Shown: positions 10,922-22,847 of the stretch, in pieces | Layout of the letters: every line of letters starts with the position of its first letter | Numbering within the stretch: position 1 is the first letter of the stretch | From: Actinomycetes bacterium | GTDB taxonomy: Bacteria > Actinomycetota > Actinomycetes > DATJPE01 | Reading direction: 5' to 3' | NCBI GenBank assembly: GCA_035506535.1 | Contig: DATJPE010000015.1 | Span: 1-39,239 of the forward strand | Length of the DNA stretch: 39,239 bases | Notes under the pieces: model-generated | Databases searched by the model: none | Told to the model about the DNA's origin: nothing | Seen by the model: only the letters and a program-made list of their open reading frames with translations | Translations under genes and position numbers: made by a program

Positions 10922-12039
10922 GTCTCGATCCAGGACGAGCGGTTGGCGGTGATCTCGGCGGGCGGGACCGACAGCGGGTTCGCGGGTCGGGCCGTCCACT
11001 TCTGGAACACCTCGGGGATCGCCACGCCGGCGCGCGCCGGCAGCACGAACATCGAGCCGGGCACGTCGGCCTGCACCGCGGGGGAGAGCAGCCAGTCGAC
11101 CACGGCGCGCGCCGCGGCCACGTGCTTGGTGCCGGCCAGGACCCCGGCGTACTCGACCTGGCGGAAGCAGCTGTCGTCCATCACCGCGATGTCCGGGGTG
11201 CTCGGCTTGGGGCTCGGCGCGAAGACGATGGCCGCGGCCGGGTCGGTGCCGTAGGAGACGACCAGCGGGTGCGTCCCCTTGCCGGCCGCGGAGAACTCGC
11301 CGTTGTAGGCGTCGTCCCAGCTGTTCACGACGGTCAGCCCGTTGGCCTTGAGCGCCTTCCAGTACGTCAGCCAGCCGGGGTCGCCGTACCGCGCGACCGT
11401 GGCCAGCAGGAAGGCGAGCCCGGGCGAGGACGTGGCCGGGTTCTCGGCGACCAGCAGCCCCCGGTAGGCCGGCCGCGTCAGGTCCGCCAGCGTCTGCGGA
11501 ACGGACAGGTGGTGCTTGGCGAACCACCCCGTGTCGGCGTCGACGCAGACGTCGCCGTAGTCGATCGGCGTGACGTAGCCGCCGCCGGTCTGGTCCTTCA
11601 GCTCCGGCCGCAGGTCGGCGTCCTCCGGCGAGACGTAGCGCTCGAAGACCCCGCCCTGCAGCGCCCGCGTCAGCAGCGTGTTGTCGACCCCGAACAGCAC
11701 GTCGCCCTCCGGGTTGCCCGCCGTGAGGACCGCCTTGTTGACCACCTCGCCCGCGTCACCGCCGGTGACCACCTTGACGGTGATGCCGGTCCGCCGCTCG
11801 AAGGCGGTCAGCAGGCTCTTGCTCACCGCGAAGGAGTCGTGCGCGAGCAGGGTGACGGTCACCGGGGCGCCATAGGAGCCGCTCGGGTACGTCGACGCGG
11901 CCGCGCCGCCCGACCCTGACGAGGCGGAGCACGCCGCGAGCGAGACACCGGCCAGCGCGAGCGCGACGAGGCGCGCACGGATCACCGGGCGACGAGACAG
12001 ATGGTGACGGATCAGATAGCGGGAACGATGGCGAGCCAC
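10897..12039 (-). CDS. thiB: Thiamine-type ABC transporter substrate-binding lipoprotein
   Basis: This 380-residue protein has a basic N-terminus, a hydrophobic stretch and a lipobox (LAGVSLAAC), so it should be a membrane-anchored lipoprotein. The body resembles ThiB: VTLLAHDSFAVSKSLLTAFERRTGI, DVLFGVDNTLLTRA, and TPIDYGDVCVDADTGWF. It captures the vitamin outside the membrane and delivers it to the permease. The GTG at 12039 sits six bases after GGAGGG, a ribosome-binding site inside the 3' strand of the TPP riboswitch. That placement decides the start and predicts translational shut-off by TPP. A later GTG (VIRARLVAL) is a weaker alternative. Confidence 0.9.
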   Translation of the reverse strand: MARHRSRYLIRHHLSRRPVIRARLVALALAGVSLAACSASSGSGGAAASTYPSGSYGAPVTVTLLAHDSFAVSKSLLTAFERRTGITVKVVTGGDAGEVVNKAVLTAGNPEGDVLFGVDNTLLTRALQGGVFERYVSPEDADLRPELKDQTGGGYVTPIDYGDVCVDADTGWFAKHHLSVPQTLADLTRPAYRGLLVAENPATSSPGLAFLLATVARYGDPGWLTYWKALKANGLTVVNSWDDAYNGEFSAAGKGTHPLVVSYGTDPAAAIVFAPSPKPSTPDIAVMDDSCFRQVEYAGVLAGTKHVAAARAVVDWLLSPAVQADVPGSMFVLPARAGVAIPEVFQKWTARPANPLSVPPAEITANRSSWIETWTEAIGQ

Positions 12040-12041
12040 GA

Positions 12042-12130
12042 GGTCCCTCCGCTGGCATTACCCAGATCAGGTTCGAGGGTCGGTGGCGGCGGCCACCCTC
12101 TCAGCCCGACGTCCCTGCGAGCTCCCCTTG
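12042..12130 (-). promoter_or_regulatory. TPP riboswitch (THI element)
   Basis: The minus strand shows the conserved blocks in order: a GGGGAGC 5' block, GGGCTGAGAGGGTGG, a variable P3 hairpin (GGCCGCCGCCACC), ACCCTCGAACCTGAT, then CTGGGTAATGCCAGCGGAGGGA. These are the pyrimidine- and pyrophosphate-sensing regions of thiamine pyrophosphate riboswitches. It directly precedes the binding-protein gene, and its final GGAGGG is also the Shine-Dalgarno sequence. Ligand binding would therefore hide the ribosome-binding site rather than require a separate terminator. Confidence 0.96.
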
Positions 12131-12139
12131 GTACGCCCT

Positions 12140-15574: not shown

Positions 15575-16138
15575 TCAGCCGGGCTGCAGCCCGTCGGCGA
15601 TGCGCCGGAGCGCGGCTCGCGCCACGTCCTCGTCGACCTTGGGCATCAGGTCCAGCCACATCGGCAGCATCGACCCGCGCAGCTGGAGGGCGCCGAGCGG
15701 ACGCGGCAGGAACCACAGGTGGAAGTGCCCGCCCCCGTCACCCCACCGGCACACATGGACCCGCCCGACCCCGCCGAGGCTCAGCACGGCCCGCTCGATC
15801 CGCGCGGTGAGCGGGCCGAGCTCCGCAAGCAGCTCGTCGGGCAGGTCCGCGAAGGAGTCGTGGTGGGCCCTTGTCATGAGCAGCACGGTGCCGGGCAGCT
15901 CGGTGGGCAGGTGGCCCGCGAGGCGCCAGTGCTCGTCGACCCACACGAAATCCTCGTCCGGGCGCGAGCACTGCTCGCATCCCTCGGTGGCCTCGTGGTG
16001 GCGTGCCGGCTCGGGCACGACGGGGTCCACCAGCGCCTTGACCCGTACGTCCCCGGTGAAGGGGAACCAGGGGTCGTCGAGCAGCTCGGCCGGCACGGGC
16101 GGACGGTCCTCGCCCGGCGCCGTGAGGTCCGCGGTCAC
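15575..16138 (-). CDS. HIT-like family protein
   Basis: The 187-residue protein has a CEQC pair around residue 50, an SFADLPDELLAELGPL helix, and the motif GGHFHLWFLPRP near its C-terminus. This is the position of the histidine-triad loop of HIT nucleotide hydrolases/transferases. The third His of the canonical H-x-H-x-H is Trp here, while the second, normally the nucleophile, remains. The GTG at 16138 overlaps the TIGR03960 stop (GTGA), so translation is coupled to the radical SAM gene. A nucleotide substrate is plausible but cannot be named. Confidence 0.75.
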   Translation of the reverse strand: MTADLTAPGEDRPPVPAELLDDPWFPFTGDVRVKALVDPVVPEPARHHEATEGCEQCSRPDEDFVWVDEHWRLAGHLPTELPGTVLLMTRAHHDSFADLPDELLAELGPLTARIERAVLSLGGVGRVHVCRWGDGGGHFHLWFLPRPLGALQLRGSMLPMWLDLMPKVDEDVARAALRRIADGLQPG

Positions 16139-18090
16139 GACGCGGGCGCGTCGGCGAGGACGCGGGGCGGTACGGCGGGGACCGGGAGCAGCGTCTCGCC
16201 GGTCGGGCCGACCTGGATCTCGGTGCCGAGCTGCGGGCAGACGCCGCAGTCGAAGCAGGGCGTCCAGCGGCAGTCGTCGACCTCGACCTCGGCGAGCGCG
16301 TCCTGCCAGTCCTCCCAGAGCCACTCCCTGTCCAGCCCCGCGTCGAGGTGGTCCCAGGGCAGGACCTCCGCCTGCTCGCGCTCGCGGGTGGTGTACCAGT
16401 CCAGGTCCACGCCGGAGCCGGCCAGCCCGCGCTCGGTGGCCGCGACCCAGCGCTCGAAGGAGAAGTGCTCGCTCCAGCCGTCGAAACGCGCGCCGTCCTC
16501 CCAGGCAGCCCGGATGACCGCCCCCACCCGTCGGTCGCCGCGGGAGAGCAGGCCCTCGATGATCCCCGGCTTGCCGTCGTGGTAGCGCAGGCCGATCGCG
16601 CGGCCGTAGGACCGGTCGGCCCGCAGCGCCTCGCGCAGCTTGGCCAGGCGGGCGTCGGTCGCCTCGTGCCCGAGCTGGGCGGCCCACTGGAACGGCGTGT
16701 GCGGCTTCGGCACGAAGCCACCGATCGAGACCGTGCAGCGGATGTCACGGCTGCCGGTGACCTCGCGCCCGGTGGCGATGACCCGGCGCGCCAGCTCGGC
16801 GATCTGCAGGACGTCCTCGTCGGTCTCCGTGGGCAGGCCGCACATGAAGTAGAGCTTGACCTGCCGCCACCCGGCGGCGTACGCGGCCGTGACCGTCCCG
16901 ATCAGGTCCTCCTCCGAGACGGTCTTGTTGATGACGCGGCGGATGCGCTCCGAGCCCCCCTCGGGGGCGAAGGTCAGCCCCGAACGCCGGCCGTTTCGCG
17001 ACAGCTCGTTCGCCAGGTCGATGTTGAAGGCGTCGACGCGGGTGCTCGGCAGGCTGAGGCTGGTGCTCGTGCCGGCGTAGCGGTCGGCCAGACCCTTGGT
17101 GATGGCGGCGATCTCGGAGTGGTCGGCGCTGGACAGGCTGAGCAGGCCGACCTCCTCGTAGCCGGTGGTCGCGAGCCCGCGGGCGACCATCTCGCCGATG
17201 CCCGTGAGGCTGCGCTCCCGCACCGGGCGGGTGATCATCCCGGCCTGGCAGAACCGGCAGCCGCGCGTACAGCCGCGGAAGATCTCCACGGACATGCGCT
17301 CGTGGACCGTCTCGGCGAGCGGCACCAACGGCTGCTTCGGATACGGCCACAGGTCCAGGTCGCTCACGGTGTGTTTGGCGACCCGCCACGGGACGCCGGC
17401 GGTGTTCGGCGCGACCCGCCGGATCCTGCCGTCCGGGAGGTACTCGACGTCGTAGTACCGGGGGACGTACGCGCTCCCGCTCCGGGCCAGCCGCAGCAGC
17501 AGCTCCTCCCGCCCCCCGGGGCTGCCCTCGCCCTTGTGCCGGCGCACGATCTCGCTGATCGCGAGCACCGCCTGCTCGCCGTCGCCGAGCACCGCGGCGT
17601 CCACGAAGTCCGCGATCGGCTCGGGGTTGAACGCGGCGTGGCCGCCGGCGATGACGATCGGGTGCTCGTCACCGCGCTCCCTGCTGTCCAGCGGGATGCC
17701 GGCCAGATCGAGGGCGGTCAGGAGGTTCGTGTAGCCGAGCTCGGTGGCGAAGCTCACCCCCAGCAGGTCGAAGGCGGCGACCGGCCGGTGGGCGTCGACG
17801 GTGAACTGCGGGACGTCGTGCTCGCGCATCAGCCGCTCGAGGTCGGGCCAGACGGCGTACGTGCGCTCCGCCAGGACGTCCGGCTGCTCGTTGAGCACCT
17901 CGTAGAGGATCATGACGCCCTGGTTGGGCAGGCCCACCTCATAGGCGTCCGGGTACATCAGCGCCCAGCGCACGCTGACACAGTCCCAGTCCTTGACCTG
18001 GGCGTTGAGCTCGCCCCCGACGTACTGGATCGGCTTGGACACCAGCGGGAGGAGGGCCTCGAGCCGAGGGAAGACTGACTCGACCGGCAT
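16135..18090 (-). CDS. TIGR03960 family B12-binding-domain radical SAM protein
   Basis: The 651-residue protein starts MPVESVFPRLEALLPLVSKP. It has an N-terminal B12-binding-like region (YPDAYEVGLPNQGVMILYEVLN; LGVSFATELGYTNLL; AGGHAAFNPEP). The radical SAM core has CTRGCRFC (C274, C278, C281), which holds a 4Fe-4S cluster, followed by FAPEGGSERIRRVINK. A C-terminal Cys-rich part (CFDCGVC) ends the protein. The reaction is unknown; the partner DUF2344 gene and rne linkage suggest RNA-related chemistry. The ATG at 18090 is chosen because the open frame beyond it reads through a palindromic repeat and has no family resemblance. Confidence 0.93.
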   Translation of the reverse strand: MPVESVFPRLEALLPLVSKPIQYVGGELNAQVKDWDCVSVRWALMYPDAYEVGLPNQGVMILYEVLNEQPDVLAERTYAVWPDLERLMREHDVPQFTVDAHRPVAAFDLLGVSFATELGYTNLLTALDLAGIPLDSRERGDEHPIVIAGGHAAFNPEPIADFVDAAVLGDGEQAVLAISEIVRRHKGEGSPGGREELLLRLARSGSAYVPRYYDVEYLPDGRIRRVAPNTAGVPWRVAKHTVSDLDLWPYPKQPLVPLAETVHERMSVEIFRGCTRGCRFCQAGMITRPVRERSLTGIGEMVARGLATTGYEEVGLLSLSSADHSEIAAITKGLADRYAGTSTSLSLPSTRVDAFNIDLANELSRNGRRSGLTFAPEGGSERIRRVINKTVSEEDLIGTVTAAYAAGWRQVKLYFMCGLPTETDEDVLQIAELARRVIATGREVTGSRDIRCTVSIGGFVPKPHTPFQWAAQLGHEATDARLAKLREALRADRSYGRAIGLRYHDGKPGIIEGLLSRGDRRVGAVIRAAWEDGARFDGWSEHFSFERWVAATERGLAGSGVDLDWYTTREREQAEVLPWDHLDAGLDREWLWEDWQDALAEVEVDDCRWTPCFDCGVCPQLGTEIQVGPTGETLLPVPAVPPRVLADAPAS

Positions 18091-18132
18091 GTTGCCCAAG
18101 CCTACGCGGCTGCAGCCCACCGCCCCTCCCGC

Positions 18133-18191
18133 GCGATCTTGAGAGATGCAGGCCGACACGCCGGTGACGCCCCTGGATCTGTCAAGATCGC
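18133..18191. repeat. 59-nt imperfect palindrome, copy 1
   Basis: The left arm is GCGATCTTGAGAGATGCAGG (18133-18152). The right arm is CCTGGATCTGTCAAGATCGC (18172-18191). They pair over 20 positions with two mismatches around a 19-base centre. The same element recurs at 19301-19359 in the same orientation and with identical length. This copy lies in the divergent gap between the radical SAM gene and the AbiEi-like gene, upstream of both, so it is not placed like a terminator. Confidence 0.9.
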
Positions 18192-18308
18192 GCAAGCACA
18201 GGTGGAGGTTTTCCTCCACGGGATGCACGGACCGAGCGGGCCGGTCGTCGTGCACAGATGACCGTGTCCCGGCCTGCTACCGACGCGACTCGTTGCACCC
18301 TGCCAGCC

Positions 18309-19268
18309 ATGGGACGCCAGGGCGATCCGGACCGAGAACGCGACGTCCAGCTGCTGGGTGCGCGCCAAGGAGGGTGCGTCAACGCCCGCCAGCTGTGCGA
18401 ACGAGGCTGGACCCGCTCGGAGACCGACTGGCGGGTCCGCTCCGGTTGGTGGCGCAGCCTCCTGCCGGGCGTTTACCTCGTGGCGGGCTGGGCGTACGGC
18501 CTTGAGTGGGACTCCCTCCCGTTCGCCACCCGGGCGTGGGCAGCGCGGCTCATGCACGGCGACGAGAGCGTCTTCTGCCTGCAGACGGCGGCCAAGCTCT
18601 GGGGGATCGAGGGGTACGGCGTCGACGATGCGACCATCCACCTTCGTCTGCCGCCCGGCCGGGAGCGCCACCAGGTCGACGGCGTCAAGGTCCACACCTG
18701 GCTGGTCCGCCACGACGAGGTCACCCTGCGCGAGGAGCACCAGCTGACCGGCGTCGGTCGGACGGTGACCGACCTCGTGCTTCGCCTACGGCGCGAGCCA
18801 GCCGTCTCGGTGCTCGACTCGGCGCTGCATCAAGGGTTGCTGGTTCCCGAGGACCTCGAGGAGCTCCAGCGACGCGCTCGCGGGAGGAGGGGCGTGGCCC
18901 GCAGCCGAGAGTGGTGGTGCCTGGGCGATGGTCGCGCCGAGTCGCCCCTCGAGACGAGGGCTCGGCTGATCGCCATCGATGCCGGACACCCGCCCGACGA
19001 GCTGCAGCTGCCCATCGTTGACAGCCACGGAGTGCTGTTGGGTTTCGGAGATCTTGCGTGGAAGCGCCAGCACCTGCGCCGGCGCACGATGGTGGTCGAA
19101 GCCGATGGTGAGGACGTGCATTCTCGCCCCGAAGCGCTGTTCCGGGACCGCTACCGCGGTAACGACATCGCGGAGGCGGGAGATTGCGACCTCTACCGGA
19201 TCACGTGGCGTGACGTGATGCGCCCCGCCTACTTCGTCAGCCTCCTCCGCCGCAACCTCGCGGCGTGA
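18309..19268 (+). CDS. AbiEi-antitoxin-like / DUF559-like (PD-(D/E)XK fold) protein
   Basis: This is a 319-residue protein from ATG 18309; an ATG at 18258 would add 17 residues, and neither has a clear ribosome-binding site. The N-terminus (residues 8-60; VNARQLCERGWTRSETDWRVRSGWW and LLPGVYL) resembles the winged-helix domain of AbiEi-type antitoxins. The C-terminus (about 205-319) resembles Vsr/DUF559-like nucleases, with E215, D248 and E264-x-D266 as candidate metal ligands. Proteins of this architecture are frequent and highly multicopy in actinobacteria, usually without an AbiEii toxin; none is adjacent here. It is the only gene on the plus strand in this otherwise minus-strand core block and is framed by two 59-nt palindromes. 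Function is unproven. Confidence 0.78.
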   Translation: MGRQGDPDRERDVQLLGARQGGCVNARQLCERGWTRSETDWRVRSGWWRSLLPGVYLVAGWAYGLEWDSLPFATRAWAARLMHGDESVFCLQTAAKLWGIEGYGVDDATIHLRLPPGRERHQVDGVKVHTWLVRHDEVTLREEHQLTGVGRTVTDLVLRLRREPAVSVLDSALHQGLLVPEDLEELQRRARGRRGVARSREWWCLGDGRAESPLETRARLIAIDAGHPPDELQLPIVDSHGVLLGFGDLAWKRQHLRRRTMVVEADGEDVHSRPEALFRDRYRGNDIAEAGDCDLYRITWRDVMRPAYFVSLLRRNLAA

Positions 19269-19300
19269 CCCGGCCCACTGGTTCGCCGCAACCTCTCACG

Positions 19301-19359
19301 GCGATCTTGAGAGATGCAGGGCGGTCTTCGGCGTGTCTCCCTGGATCTCTCAAGATCGC
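19301..19359. repeat. 59-nt imperfect palindrome, copy 2
   Basis: The left arm is GCGATCTTGAGAGATGCAGG (19301-19320). The right arm is CCTGGATCTCTCAAGATCGC (19340-19359). There is one mismatch over 20 positions. Compared with copy 1, the left arms are identical and the right arms differ at one base, whereas the 19-base centres match at only about five positions. This copy lies between the convergent ends of the AbiEi-like gene and rodA, where it could also stop transcription from either side. Confidence 0.9.
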
Positions 19360-19395: not shown

Positions 19396-20577
19396 TCAGG
19401 CGTAGCGGCGGAGGTGGACGTTCTGGAGCAGGCCGACCGCCATCATCGAGGCGAACATGGCCGAGCCTCCGTAGGAGACGAAGGGCAGCGGTACGCCGGT
19501 CATCGGCATGATCCCCAACGTCATGCCGATGTTCTCGAAGGACTGGAAGGCGAACCAGCACACGACGCCGACGGCGACCAGCCGGCCGAACATGTCGTCG
19601 GCCTGCAAGGCGATACGCAGGCCGCGCCAGAGCACCAGCCCAAGGAGCAGGATCATCGTCCCCGCGCCGACGAAGCCGAGCTCCTCGCCGGCGACCGTGA
19701 ACACGAAGTCGGTGTCCTGCTCCGGGATGAACGTGCCGTTGGTCTGCGTCCCCTTGAACAGCCCCTTGCCCTCCAGGCCGCCCGACCCGATGGCGATCTG
19801 GCCTTGGTGCAGCTGGTAGCCGATGCCGCTCGGGTCGATCGAGGGGTTGACGATCACCTCGAAGCGGGCCTTCTGGTACTCCTTCAGCGCGCCGCCGTGG
19901 ACGATGAGCCCGACCCCGAGGCACCCCAGCAGCAGCAGGCCGAGCAGCCAGCTGGCGCGCATCTCCGACACCGCGAGGATGCCCAGGATGATGGCGAGGA
20001 CCACGACCGTGGTGCCGACGTCGGGCTGCAGCATGATGAGCCCGACAGGGACTGCCGCCACCGCGAGCGCGGTGAGGACGAGGCCGGCCGACGGGGCCGA
20101 CTCGTGGTCCGCGCGTTCGGCGAGGATCATCGCCAGCCCCACGCACAGGGCGACCTTGGCGAACTCCGAGGGCTGCACCGAGAAGCCCGCGGGCAGCAGG
20201 ATCCACGAATGGGCACCGTTGACGCTGGAGCCCAGCGGGGAGAGCACGGCGAGCAGGCCGATGACCGACGCGACGTAGATGAACGGCGCGTACGCGCGCA
20301 GCATGCGGTGGTCGAACAACGCGACGAAAATGCCCAGCGCCGCCCCGACGACGATGTTGAGGACGTGCTTCTTGAGCTCGCTCATCGGGTCGAGCCCGGC
20401 CTCGGCGAGCTTCACCCGCGTCGCGGAGTACACGAGCAACGAACCCATGAAGCACAGCCCCGCGACCGCGAGGATAAGCACCCAGTCGAGGCGCCACAGG
20501 ATCGAGTCGCGGGAGAAGGTGCCGCTGCGTCGGGCGACCGGACGGGAGCCCTCGTACGGCGGGTAGCCGGCGGTCAT
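19396..20577 (-). CDS. rodA: RodA-type peptidoglycan glycosyltransferase (SEDS family)
   Basis: This 393-residue integral membrane protein has about ten helices and the SEDS motifs GAHSWILLPAGFSVQPSEFAKVAL, LMLQPDVGTT (read here as LIMLQPDVGTT) and the C-terminal GVPLPFVSYGGSAM. It polymerises lipid II into glycan strands for side-wall growth, together with the class B penicillin-binding protein encoded just upstream. The ATG at 20577 overlaps the mrdA stop (ATGA). It is the last gene of the mreB-mreC-mreD-mrdA-rodA series. RodA is preferred over FtsW because of this neighbourhood. Confidence 0.95.
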   Translation of the reverse strand: MTAGYPPYEGSRPVARRSGTFSRDSILWRLDWVLILAVAGLCFMGSLLVYSATRVKLAEAGLDPMSELKKHVLNIVVGAALGIFVALFDHRMLRAYAPFIYVASVIGLLAVLSPLGSSVNGAHSWILLPAGFSVQPSEFAKVALCVGLAMILAERADHESAPSAGLVLTALAVAAVPVGLIMLQPDVGTTVVVLAIILGILAVSEMRASWLLGLLLLGCLGVGLIVHGGALKEYQKARFEVIVNPSIDPSGIGYQLHQGQIAIGSGGLEGKGLFKGTQTNGTFIPEQDTDFVFTVAGEELGFVGAGTMILLLGLVLWRGLRIALQADDMFGRLVAVGVVCWFAFQSFENIGMTLGIMPMTGVPLPFVSYGGSAMFASMMAVGLLQNVHLRRYA

Positions 20578-22847
20578 GGCGACCTCGAGGGCGACGCACG
20601 CGTGCTGGCGGTGGACCCGTTCGCCCGCCGGGCGGCGCGACCGGTGGCCCGGGCCCGGGAGTCCGCCGCGGTCGCGACGTACAGCGGCGGCCCGGGGATG
20701 CCGGTCAGGTTCGGCACCCAGGTCTTCAGCAGCGGCAGGGTCGGGACGGCCACCAGGCGCCCGTTCTTGGTGATCCTGGGCAGCGTGGTCGGCGGGGTGG
20801 TCATGATCGCCTTGGCGGGGTCGACCGTGTGCGAACCGGTCACGCCGTACAGCGCCTCGTAGATCTTCTCCACGGACGGGCCGGAGATGCCCGACCCGGT
20901 CCCGCCCTGGCTGACCATCATGACCACTGCGTACTGCGGCTTGTTCGCGGGGGCGTAGGAGGCGAACCAGGAGGTGGTGGCCTTGCCCTGCACCTCGGCG
21001 GTACCAGTCTTCGCCGCGATCGGCAGCTGGCCCTTCGGGAAGTTCGCGAAGGGTCCGCGCGCGGTGCCGTGGGACCCCGTGACAACGGTCGTGAGCGCGT
21101 GCTGCAGGTACGCCAGCACGGTCTTGGGCACCGGCAGCCTGCCGACCTTCTTGGGCTTGATGATGCGCACCAGCTTGCCGCTCGGGGTGATCACCGCCTT
21201 GCCGATGGTCGGCTGCCACAACGTGCCGCCGTTGGCCACCGCGGCGTAGGCCCGCGCCATCTGCAGCGGGGTGACGGCCGTCGAGCCCTGGCCGATGGCG
21301 AAGTTGGCCGCGTCCCCGGGGAGATAGATGTAGCCCTGCGCGCTGCAGTTCTCGGCGTCGATTCGCTGGAGGTACGTGCCCTTCGGGCGCGTCTTCGCGC
21401 CCTCGCAGGCCGACGCCCGCGTCGCCTGCCAGTACTGGTACTTGCCCTGGCGGTCGAAGATGCGGCTGCGTGCCTCGCCGGTCAGGTCCACCCCGGTCAG
21501 CTCGTCCATGCCGTACGCCTTGGCCATCTCGGTGAACGGGTCCTTGGCGGAGAGCTTGGCCTTCGCGCCGCCCTCGTGCAGCCAGTCGTGATACGCGACG
21601 CCATAGAAGACCGTGTCGCAAGAGACCTCGATCGCCTTCTGCAGGCTGATGTTGCCGAATGCCTCCGACTCGTAGTTCGCCTTGTATGTGTTGCCGATCT
21701 TCAGCTTCGACGGGCACGGGTAGGACCCGTAGAGGGAGTACCCCGGCGACTTCGCTACCGCCGGCAGCGACACGACCTTGAACGTCGAGCCCGGCGCGTA
21801 CAGACCCTGGTAGGCCCGCGACAGCGTGGGGTAGTTGTCCTTCTTGCTCGTGATCGCCGCGTAGTCCTTGGCCGAGATGCCACCGACCCACACGGACGGG
21901 TTGTAGGTCGGGTAGCTCGCCATGGCGATGATCCGCCCAGTCCTCACGTCCATGACGACGACGGCGCCGGAGTCGGCCGGGAACTTCTTGCCCTTCTTGT
22001 TGACGTCGCCGGTCACACGGGCGCGCTTGATGGCGGCGGCGAGCTGGTCCTCGGCGACCTTCTGCACCTGCGCGTCCAGACTGGTGACCAGGTAGTCCCC
22101 CGGCGTCGCCGCGACGTCGGACTCGGTCCCCGTGATGTGCCGGGCCGCGTTGACGTAGTACGTCGTCACGCCCGCCTTGCCCCGCAGCACGTTGTCGTAC
22201 ACCGCCTCCAGGCCGGTCTTGCCGACCAGGTCGGAGGCCGTGATCGGCGAGCTCGTGCCCTTCGAGGCGTTGATCTCGGCCTGGGTCGCGGGGCCGAGAT
22301 AGCCCAGCTCGTGCGCGGCGTTGGCGCCCAGCGGCTCCGGGTACTCCCGCACCGTCTCCAGCGTGGCGCTCACGCCCGGGAAGCGCTCGCGCTCCTCGCT
22401 GACCGACAGGGCGACCTGGGTGGTGACGTCCTTGGCGACCGGGATCGGCTGGAACGGCGACCCGCTCCAGCACTCCGGCGCGTGCGCGTCGGGATCGGTC
22501 CCGCACCGCCGCGTGCGCTCGTAGAGGTCGCGGTAGGTCGTCCCGAGCACCTTGGCCAGCCGATAGAGGACGACCTTGCCCTTGTCCTTGCGCCCCGCGA
22601 GCGTCTCGGCGTCGACGGTGACCACGATCGACTCACGGTTCTCCGCGAGCGGGCGTCCCTTGTCGTCGAGGATCAGGCCGCGGACCGCCGGGGTCACCAC
22701 GGTCTCCTCGGCGTTGTTGGCGGCGATCGCCTGGTACGTCGTCGTCGCGATCACCTGCATGTACCACAGACGCCCCACGAGGGTCAGCAGCAGCGAGATG
22801 ACCAGGACCTGCAGCACCACCAGGCGCAGCGAGGAACGGTCGGTCAC
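20574..22847 (-). CDS. mrdA: Penicillin-binding protein 2 (class B transpeptidase)
   Basis: The 757-residue protein has an N-terminal membrane anchor (about 9-30), a pedestal/dimerisation region, and a transpeptidase domain. The active-site serine is in STFK (354-357), followed by SCDT (409-412) and KTGT (613-616). It cross-links glycan made by RodA during elongation. The start is GTG at 22847. After the domain (ending near TGIPGPPLYVA) there is a basic, Ala/Arg/Ser-rich tail of about 35 residues of unclear role. It is coupled to rodA by a 4-base overlap. Confidence 0.95.
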   Translation of the reverse strand: MTDRSSLRLVVLQVLVISLLLTLVGRLWYMQVIATTTYQAIAANNAEETVVTPAVRGLILDDKGRPLAENRESIVVTVDAETLAGRKDKGKVVLYRLAKVLGTTYRDLYERTRRCGTDPDAHAPECWSGSPFQPIPVAKDVTTQVALSVSEERERFPGVSATLETVREYPEPLGANAAHELGYLGPATQAEINASKGTSSPITASDLVGKTGLEAVYDNVLRGKAGVTTYYVNAARHITGTESDVAATPGDYLVTSLDAQVQKVAEDQLAAAIKRARVTGDVNKKGKKFPADSGAVVVMDVRTGRIIAMASYPTYNPSVWVGGISAKDYAAITSKKDNYPTLSRAYQGLYAPGSTFKVVSLPAVAKSPGYSLYGSYPCPSKLKIGNTYKANYESEAFGNISLQKAIEVSCDTVFYGVAYHDWLHEGGAKAKLSAKDPFTEMAKAYGMDELTGVDLTGEARSRIFDRQGKYQYWQATRASACEGAKTRPKGTYLQRIDAENCSAQGYIYLPGDAANFAIGQGSTAVTPLQMARAYAAVANGGTLWQPTIGKAVITPSGKLVRIIKPKKVGRLPVPKTVLAYLQHALTTVVTGSHGTARGPFANFPKGQLPIAAKTGTAEVQGKATTSWFASYAPANKPQYAVVMMVSQGGTGSGISGPSVEKIYEALYGVTGSHTVDPAKAIMTTPPTTLPRITKNGRLVAVPTLPLLKTWVPNLTGIPGPPLYVATAADSRARATGRAARRANGSTASTRASPSRSP

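Follow-up and report, generated by a model that had tools for sequence, protein, structure and literature searches.

A gene for a nuclease-like protein lies between two hairpin-forming palindromes in the window analyzed here (the whole 39,239-nt stretch of DNA, from genome G000), and genes of the same family recur across the actinobacteria, each gene copy with its own hairpin, an arrangement that points to a mobile DNA repeat system of a previously undescribed kind. Each gene is probably the partner of its own hairpin family and its product probably a mobilizing nuclease, in an association that resembles that of REP palindromes with the RAYTs (REP-associated tyrosine transposases) and employs an unrelated enzyme.

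The window gene, its palindromes, and their insertion site

The initial annotation of this DNA had reported two 59-nt palindromes framing a single plus-strand gene, with identical left arms and with right arms that differ at one base, and these observations hold (Table 1). Each palindrome has a 55-nt core consisting of an 18-nt arm, a 19-nt loop, and a second 18-nt arm; a search by pair pattern gives 2 matches, against 0.00 in shuffled sequence. The two copies had been described as lying in the same orientation, but self-complementary arms carry no orientation, and it is the loops that share sequence once the left copy is reverse-complemented. Read in this way, the left copy is GATCTTGACAGATCCAGG-GGCGTCACCGGCGTGTCGG-CCTGCATCTCTCAAGATC and the right copy GATCTTGAGAGATGCAGG-GCGGTCTTCGGCGTGTCTC-CCTGGATCTCTCAAGATC, the two loops have the stretch CGGCGTGTC in common, and the pair is inverted. 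The almost complete divergence of the centers noted initially is thus an artefact of the same-orientation reading, the 3′ half of the loop (CGGCGTGTCG) being among the best conserved parts of the element. A mismatch between the arms that had been taken as fixed corresponds to paired positions in other copies in the same genome (GATGC...GCATC; L007, L009, and L014). Selection on the arms and not on the loop, as then proposed, describes the outer 13 bp of the arms, which are conserved, but half of the loop is conserved as well, and the inner arm varies with compensation. The palindromes were also considered as a known RNA family, and Rfam gave no match at either element; its matches elsewhere in the window, a TPP riboswitch (12025–12138) and a tRNA (324–396), both on the minus strand, are ordinary.

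Table 1. Positions in the window of the framed gene, the hairpin elements, and the neighboring host genes
Feature	Position	Strand	Remarks
TIGR03960 radical-SAM gene	16135–18090	-	Host neighbor at insertion site; ATG at 18090
Left hairpin element	18131–18193 (59-nt span 18133–18191; core 18135–18189)	-	Loop reads CGGCGTGTCG on minus strand; plus strand has CGACACGCCG at 18154–18163
Nuclease-like gene	18309–19268	+	319 amino acids; ATG at 18309 supported by homology to ortholog; longer ORF from 18258
Right hairpin element	19301–19359 (core 19303–19357)	+	Loop motif CGGCGTGTCT at 19329–19338; inverted relative to left element
rodA	19396–20600	-	Host neighbor at insertion site; stop at 19396, upstream boundary approximate

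The protein comprises an AbiEi-like winged helix-turn-helix (wHTH) region (approximately residues 13–192) followed by a putative DUF559/MTES_1575 Vsr-like nuclease part (approximately residues 210–305). The former is matched by the PADLOC AbiEi model (E 3.7e-16 over residues 13–192) and, under the cut-off of 25, by Pfam AbiEi_4 (18.9 bits); the latter is a weak match in the window protein (16.7 bits against a curated cut-off of 38.2), and among 20 diverse relatives MTES_1575 is matched by 9 (best 1.5e-10) and DUF559 by 7. Across 20 diverse homologs, residues D170, G195, A210, S212, E215, D248, E264, and D302 do not vary, and D266, G267, and H271 hardly do, as would be expected of a Vsr-like PD-(D/E)XK nuclease fold. 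Pfam and NCBIfam searches of 20 members returned AbiEi_4, MTES_1575, and DUF559, and no Y1 transposase domain. Solved structures gave weak matches only, the best being 3hrl (“Endonuclease-Like Protein”; E 0.023), together with AbiEi-type chains, and an AlphaFold model built from two sequences (mean pLDDT 50) was left out of the evidence. No relatives were recovered from viral contigs with one search pattern. Judged by its sequence, the window gene probably encodes a DNA-cutting enzyme.

The question, raised initially, of whether relatives have rodA and TIGR03960 uninterrupted by such a gene is answered in the affirmative by 26 other placeable genomes of the class, all with both genes on one strand, spaced 26–490 bp apart in 22 and 1.1–2.0 kb apart in 4, and none of the 26 with a homolog of the window gene between them. 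These include two members of the family of the metagenome-assembled genome JANYIP01, in which the gap measures 38 and 61 bp. On contig 164 (L047), JANYIP01 itself carries an ortholog of the window gene (149/320 residues, 47% amino acid identity) that is flanked by two hairpins inverted as in the window, adjoins TIGR03960, and has a stop codon overlapping a hairpin, so that a relative with the gene at this site keeps both palindromes, as the annotation's reading would have it. Given the 26 genomes without a homolog, the module is an insertion at rodA–TIGR03960 common to G000 and JANYIP01. In genome G037, the same gap holds a solo hairpin (L374) like those that frame the G037 paralog L124 (CCTGCTTGTCC), and the gap may therefore be a favored landing place.

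A palindrome unique to the window, a case the initial annotation had allowed for, can be dismissed. G000 (3.35 Mb in 102 contigs) contains 7 canonical copies, 1 degenerate copy, and 1 copy cut by a contig end (control matches 0), and among the canonical copies only the window pair frames the window gene; a whole-genome search of JANYIP01 (approximately 78% complete) found 13 copies. When 84,980 species genomes were scanned with the exact arms, JANYIP01 was the only other genome to yield the family, 4 single matches in other phyla being set aside, and an arm search of 394 class genomes found it in two genomes only, with 2 further single matches that look like chance. The arms are therefore lineage-specific, and a universal arm sequence is ruled out by the class-wide search. 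Oriented copies from G000 and JANYIP01 have in common GATCTTGAGAGAT arms and the CGGCGTGTCG loop motif, and the copies are intergenic, mostly immediately behind gene ends. Inner arm and outer flank covary in JANYIP01, with 15 cells changed on both sides against 6.0 in shuffles, none of 500 of which reached as high a value.

Framing and paralog-specific hairpins across the class

Relatives were detected in 90 of 297 genomes with a profile built from the two orthologs, and many of these relatives are bracketed by hairpins with other arm sequences. In an enlarged set, a repeat common to both flanks (score 16 or more) was present in 68 of 138 family genes, compared with 1 of the 246 other genes at these loci (Fisher p 3e-35, a value that overstates independence since the family genes are related by descent), and strong hairpins on both sides were present in 30/138 family genes and 1/246 controls. 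As right-hand hairpins are common in controls (35/246), only two-sided framing was used. Framing is spread over the whole tree of the family, and some clades are without it. The CGACACGCCG/CGGCGTGTCG loop motif persists in several pairs; a 10/10 match occurs in 29 of the 138 pairs of flanks, compared with 1 among 690 shuffled ones. Both orientations occur within pairs of the class (41 inverted, 26 direct), the pair being inverted in the window, in JANYIP01, and in the genus of genome G291, and direct in some other clades; it cannot therefore be described simply as terminal inverted repeats. Outside 34 framed pairs no consistent direct repeat, such as a target-site duplication, was found, a result at odds with a typical insertion sequence but compatible with a REP-like or homing-like route.

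Different paralogs in one genome carry different hairpins. In G000, the paralogs on contigs C66 (L033) and C44 (L035) are framed by CGTGACGTTGTTGCCCC and GAGACCACCCTGGTGG hairpins, respectively, and that on C93 (L032) by a weaker repeat; genomes G111 and G249 likewise have differing hairpins for differing paralogs. The type-1 gene of G291 has GAGCGTGCG hairpins, a second paralog has GAGCAGACACAGAATCGC on both sides, and a third (L322) has GAGTTCTACACC on one side, a sequence first met as a solo hairpin nested in GAGCGTGCG doublets of this genome and later found beside L322. Over the 68 framed genes, arm similarity rises with protein identity (Spearman 0.41; 0/999 permutations), a correlation that is expected from common descent and would also be compatible with cognate recognition.

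Copy number, a variable site, and doublets

The number of GAGCGTGCG hairpins in 60 genomes of the G291 genus ranges from 0 to 49 (reversed control pattern 0), with a median of 5 in the 27 genomes that have the type-1 gene against 1 in those without it (Mann–Whitney p 7e-6, kinship ignored); all 13 genomes with at least 6 copies have the gene. Three gene-bearing genomes are without the GAGCGTGCG pattern, and in two of these other arms surround the gene (GAGCGCTCAC in G048 and GAGCGCCCCC in G435). Arm matches reach 205 in genome G095 (f37; control 0), and overall there are one or a few genes per up to approximately 100 hairpins. Cognate genes with in-frame stops were seen at L226 (G149), L236 (G418), and L240 (G426), in genomes with 19 hairpins (G149) and 26 hairpins (G418), as if hairpins outlive their gene.

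At one syntenic site in the G291 genus, the gene unit, with complete hairpins on each side, is present in G291 and G432. The corresponding site has a solo hairpin in G418, a gene-less pair in G427, and no hairpin in G405, G429, and G419, so that its empty states are both solo-hairpin and hairpin-free; other relatives hold hairpins of other families there. Since the genomes are one per species, insertion boundaries are blurred.

Hairpins in this genus also form doublets (pairs less than 2 kb apart), and all 21 that were examined by script read L-R; one tandem L-L pair was seen, in G399. The L-R spacer of G291 doublets (L301–L313) often holds a whole hairpin of another family (GAGTTCTACACC... 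or CGAAACTACGG.TGTTGAC...), and such spacers are nested or composite repeats. Just outside the doublets and many single elements (L300–L319, L145, L001), the DNA is rich in pyrimidines on the left and in purines on the right, possibly a target preference. Insertion into pre-existing palindromes was considered and set aside, the complementarity of doublet outer flanks to their own partners being unconvincing (permutation 173/2000; 42/2000 for f1/f21 elements).

Interpretation and comparison with known systems

We regard it as reasonably probable that these loci are mobile units of hairpin, nuclease gene, and hairpin, in which a dedicated enzyme spreads its cognate hairpins. A unit of approximately 1.2 kb, mobile or formerly mobile, would have been inserted between rodA and TIGR03960; the AbiEi-like winged helix and the Vsr-fold nuclease would recognize the conserved arm and loop; the protein would cut or nick at the hairpin; and the ensuing repair or strand transfer would spread solo hairpins, doublets, and occasionally the whole unit. 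The initial annotation had proposed an inserted module that links a Vsr/DUF559-like nuclease with a palindrome after the manner of REP and RAYT, and this much is well supported by the site without the gene elsewhere, the ortholog with both palindromes, and the class-wide framing. For the cutting or spreading of the hairpin that it also proposed, we infer binding, cutting, and transposition chemistry, and that this enzyme and not another would be the mover. Beyond the points just named, our reading draws on the hairpin particular to each paralog, the copy number that follows the cognate gene, the several states of the syntenic site, the polarity of the doublets, the compensatory stem changes, and the invariant residues of catalytic type. 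Against it stand the lack of target-site duplications, the clades without framing, the mixed orientation of pairs, the few genes among so many hairpins, the scores of the window protein below the curated Pfam cut-offs, and the location of most hairpins at gene ends that terminators also occupy.

The hairpins might instead be binding sites (operators or boundary elements) for the AbiEi-like winged helix, which would regulate its own gene and nearby genes without use of the nuclease-like domain on the hairpin. AbiEi antitoxins bind to inverted repeats located in the promoters of their own genes (PMC7319586), the PADLOC AbiEi match covers the region concerned, and the left hairpin is located in the promoter region. 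A hairpin also stands, however, at the gene's 3′ end, up to 49–100 copies occur elsewhere, a syntenic site has hairpins in some genomes and lacks them in others, the doublets have fixed polarity, and the nuclease residues are invariant, all of which makes a purely regulatory role unlikely. A free-standing homing endonuclease of Vsr/EDxHD type, for which the solo hairpin is the target and whose cut and repair copy the gene into hairpins that spread otherwise, would be in keeping with the EDxHD nucleases as an established family of homing enzymes (PMC6083498) and with the solo hairpin in G418 where G291 has the gene. We consider this improbable: homing would split one site and not leave a complete hairpin on each side, there are clean empty sites without any hairpin, and the hairpins far outnumber the genes.

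Nor do we put much weight on the possibility that a different enzyme moves the hairpins, or that they spread because they are useful as terminators, with the nuclease gene as a defense or passenger gene among them. Most of the hairpins do lie at the 3′ ends of genes, where terminators are found as well, and AbiEi models are listed in a defense library, but hairpins specific to each paralog and correlated with the cognate gene are not expected of a passenger, and the neighboring genes are unframed. Apart from the low number of copies in G000, nothing favors a chance pairing of ordinary intergenic hairpins round one gene, a reading that is hardly credible and already refuted by the ortholog with the same pair and by the class-wide enrichment. 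The reading that we prefer, of a hairpin-spreading nuclease, lends itself to direct testing, since every paralog implies a substrate of its own. If it is true, the intergenic palindrome families of GC-rich actinobacteria, probably including mycobacteria, would gain an origin and a specific enzyme, and many annotations as “AbiEi antitoxin” or “DUF559” would have to be revised, the genes concerned being seen as partners of repeat elements, not toxin-antitoxin or defense genes. We lean, if only slightly, toward the broader proposition that actinobacterial palindrome families are made and maintained by dedicated AbiEi-wHTH/Vsr-fold nucleases, each specific to its hairpin, which would be a second, independently evolved solution of the REP/RAYT type and a use of the Vsr-fold nuclease as a stand-alone mobile-element enzyme.

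In open-access PMC, we found no paper describing such a system and nothing relevant linking DUF559 or MTES_1575 to palindromes. MTES_1575 was defined as a novel Vsr-type restriction endonuclease (PMC3710099), and the present proteins resemble the MTES_1575/DUF559 enzymes in their predicted C-terminal domain and its conserved acidic residues; in that study the domain occurs in giant fusions tied to restriction and defense, and no repeat link was found there. The N-terminal two thirds match models of AbiEi, the antitoxin of the AbiE type IV toxin-antitoxin system, but no gene for the AbiEii nucleotidyltransferase toxin lies next to the window gene (its neighbors are rodA and TIGR03960), a predicted C-terminal nuclease domain is added, and the gene is framed by hairpins. 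EDxHD homing endonucleases are Vsr-like, and the units described here similarly place a predicted Vsr-like nuclease in a small mobile unit, but with whole hairpins on both sides, many solo hairpins, and no split target site seen. Insertion sequences and MITEs share the single gene between terminal repeats and the gene-less derivatives; here, in contrast, DDE, serine, and HUH transposase domains and target-site duplications are lacking, the terminal repeats are palindromes in themselves, and pairs may be direct.

Closest in organization are REP/REPIN sequences with their RAYTs, REPtrons, and TIRtrons, in which the enzyme is an HUH transposase (PMC2817692, PMC3116915, PMC3733652). As in REP/RAYT systems, the palindromes are extragenic and multicopy, with solo copies (7–49 copies here, in addition to the arm matches in G095), and their families are paralog-specific; as in a REPtron, a gene is flanked by cognate palindromes of one family (68/138 against 1/246, and the window and JANYIP01); and as in REPINs, there are inverted doublets, uniformly L-R in one genus, the copies in the window genome being too few for this comparison. 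The elements are longer than REPs (55–75 nt), often with the CGGCGTGTCG loop motif, the GTAG or CGTC tag at the hairpin foot that is a feature of REPs is absent from the element and flank sequences, and the enzyme is an AbiEi-wHTH and predicted Vsr-fold (DUF559/MTES_1575) protein, not an HUH Y1 (IS200-like) transposase. Membership in REP/RAYT thus fails on the enzyme and on the tag, and the system, if our reading is true, would be a convergent counterpart of REP/RAYT built on an unrelated nuclease fold.
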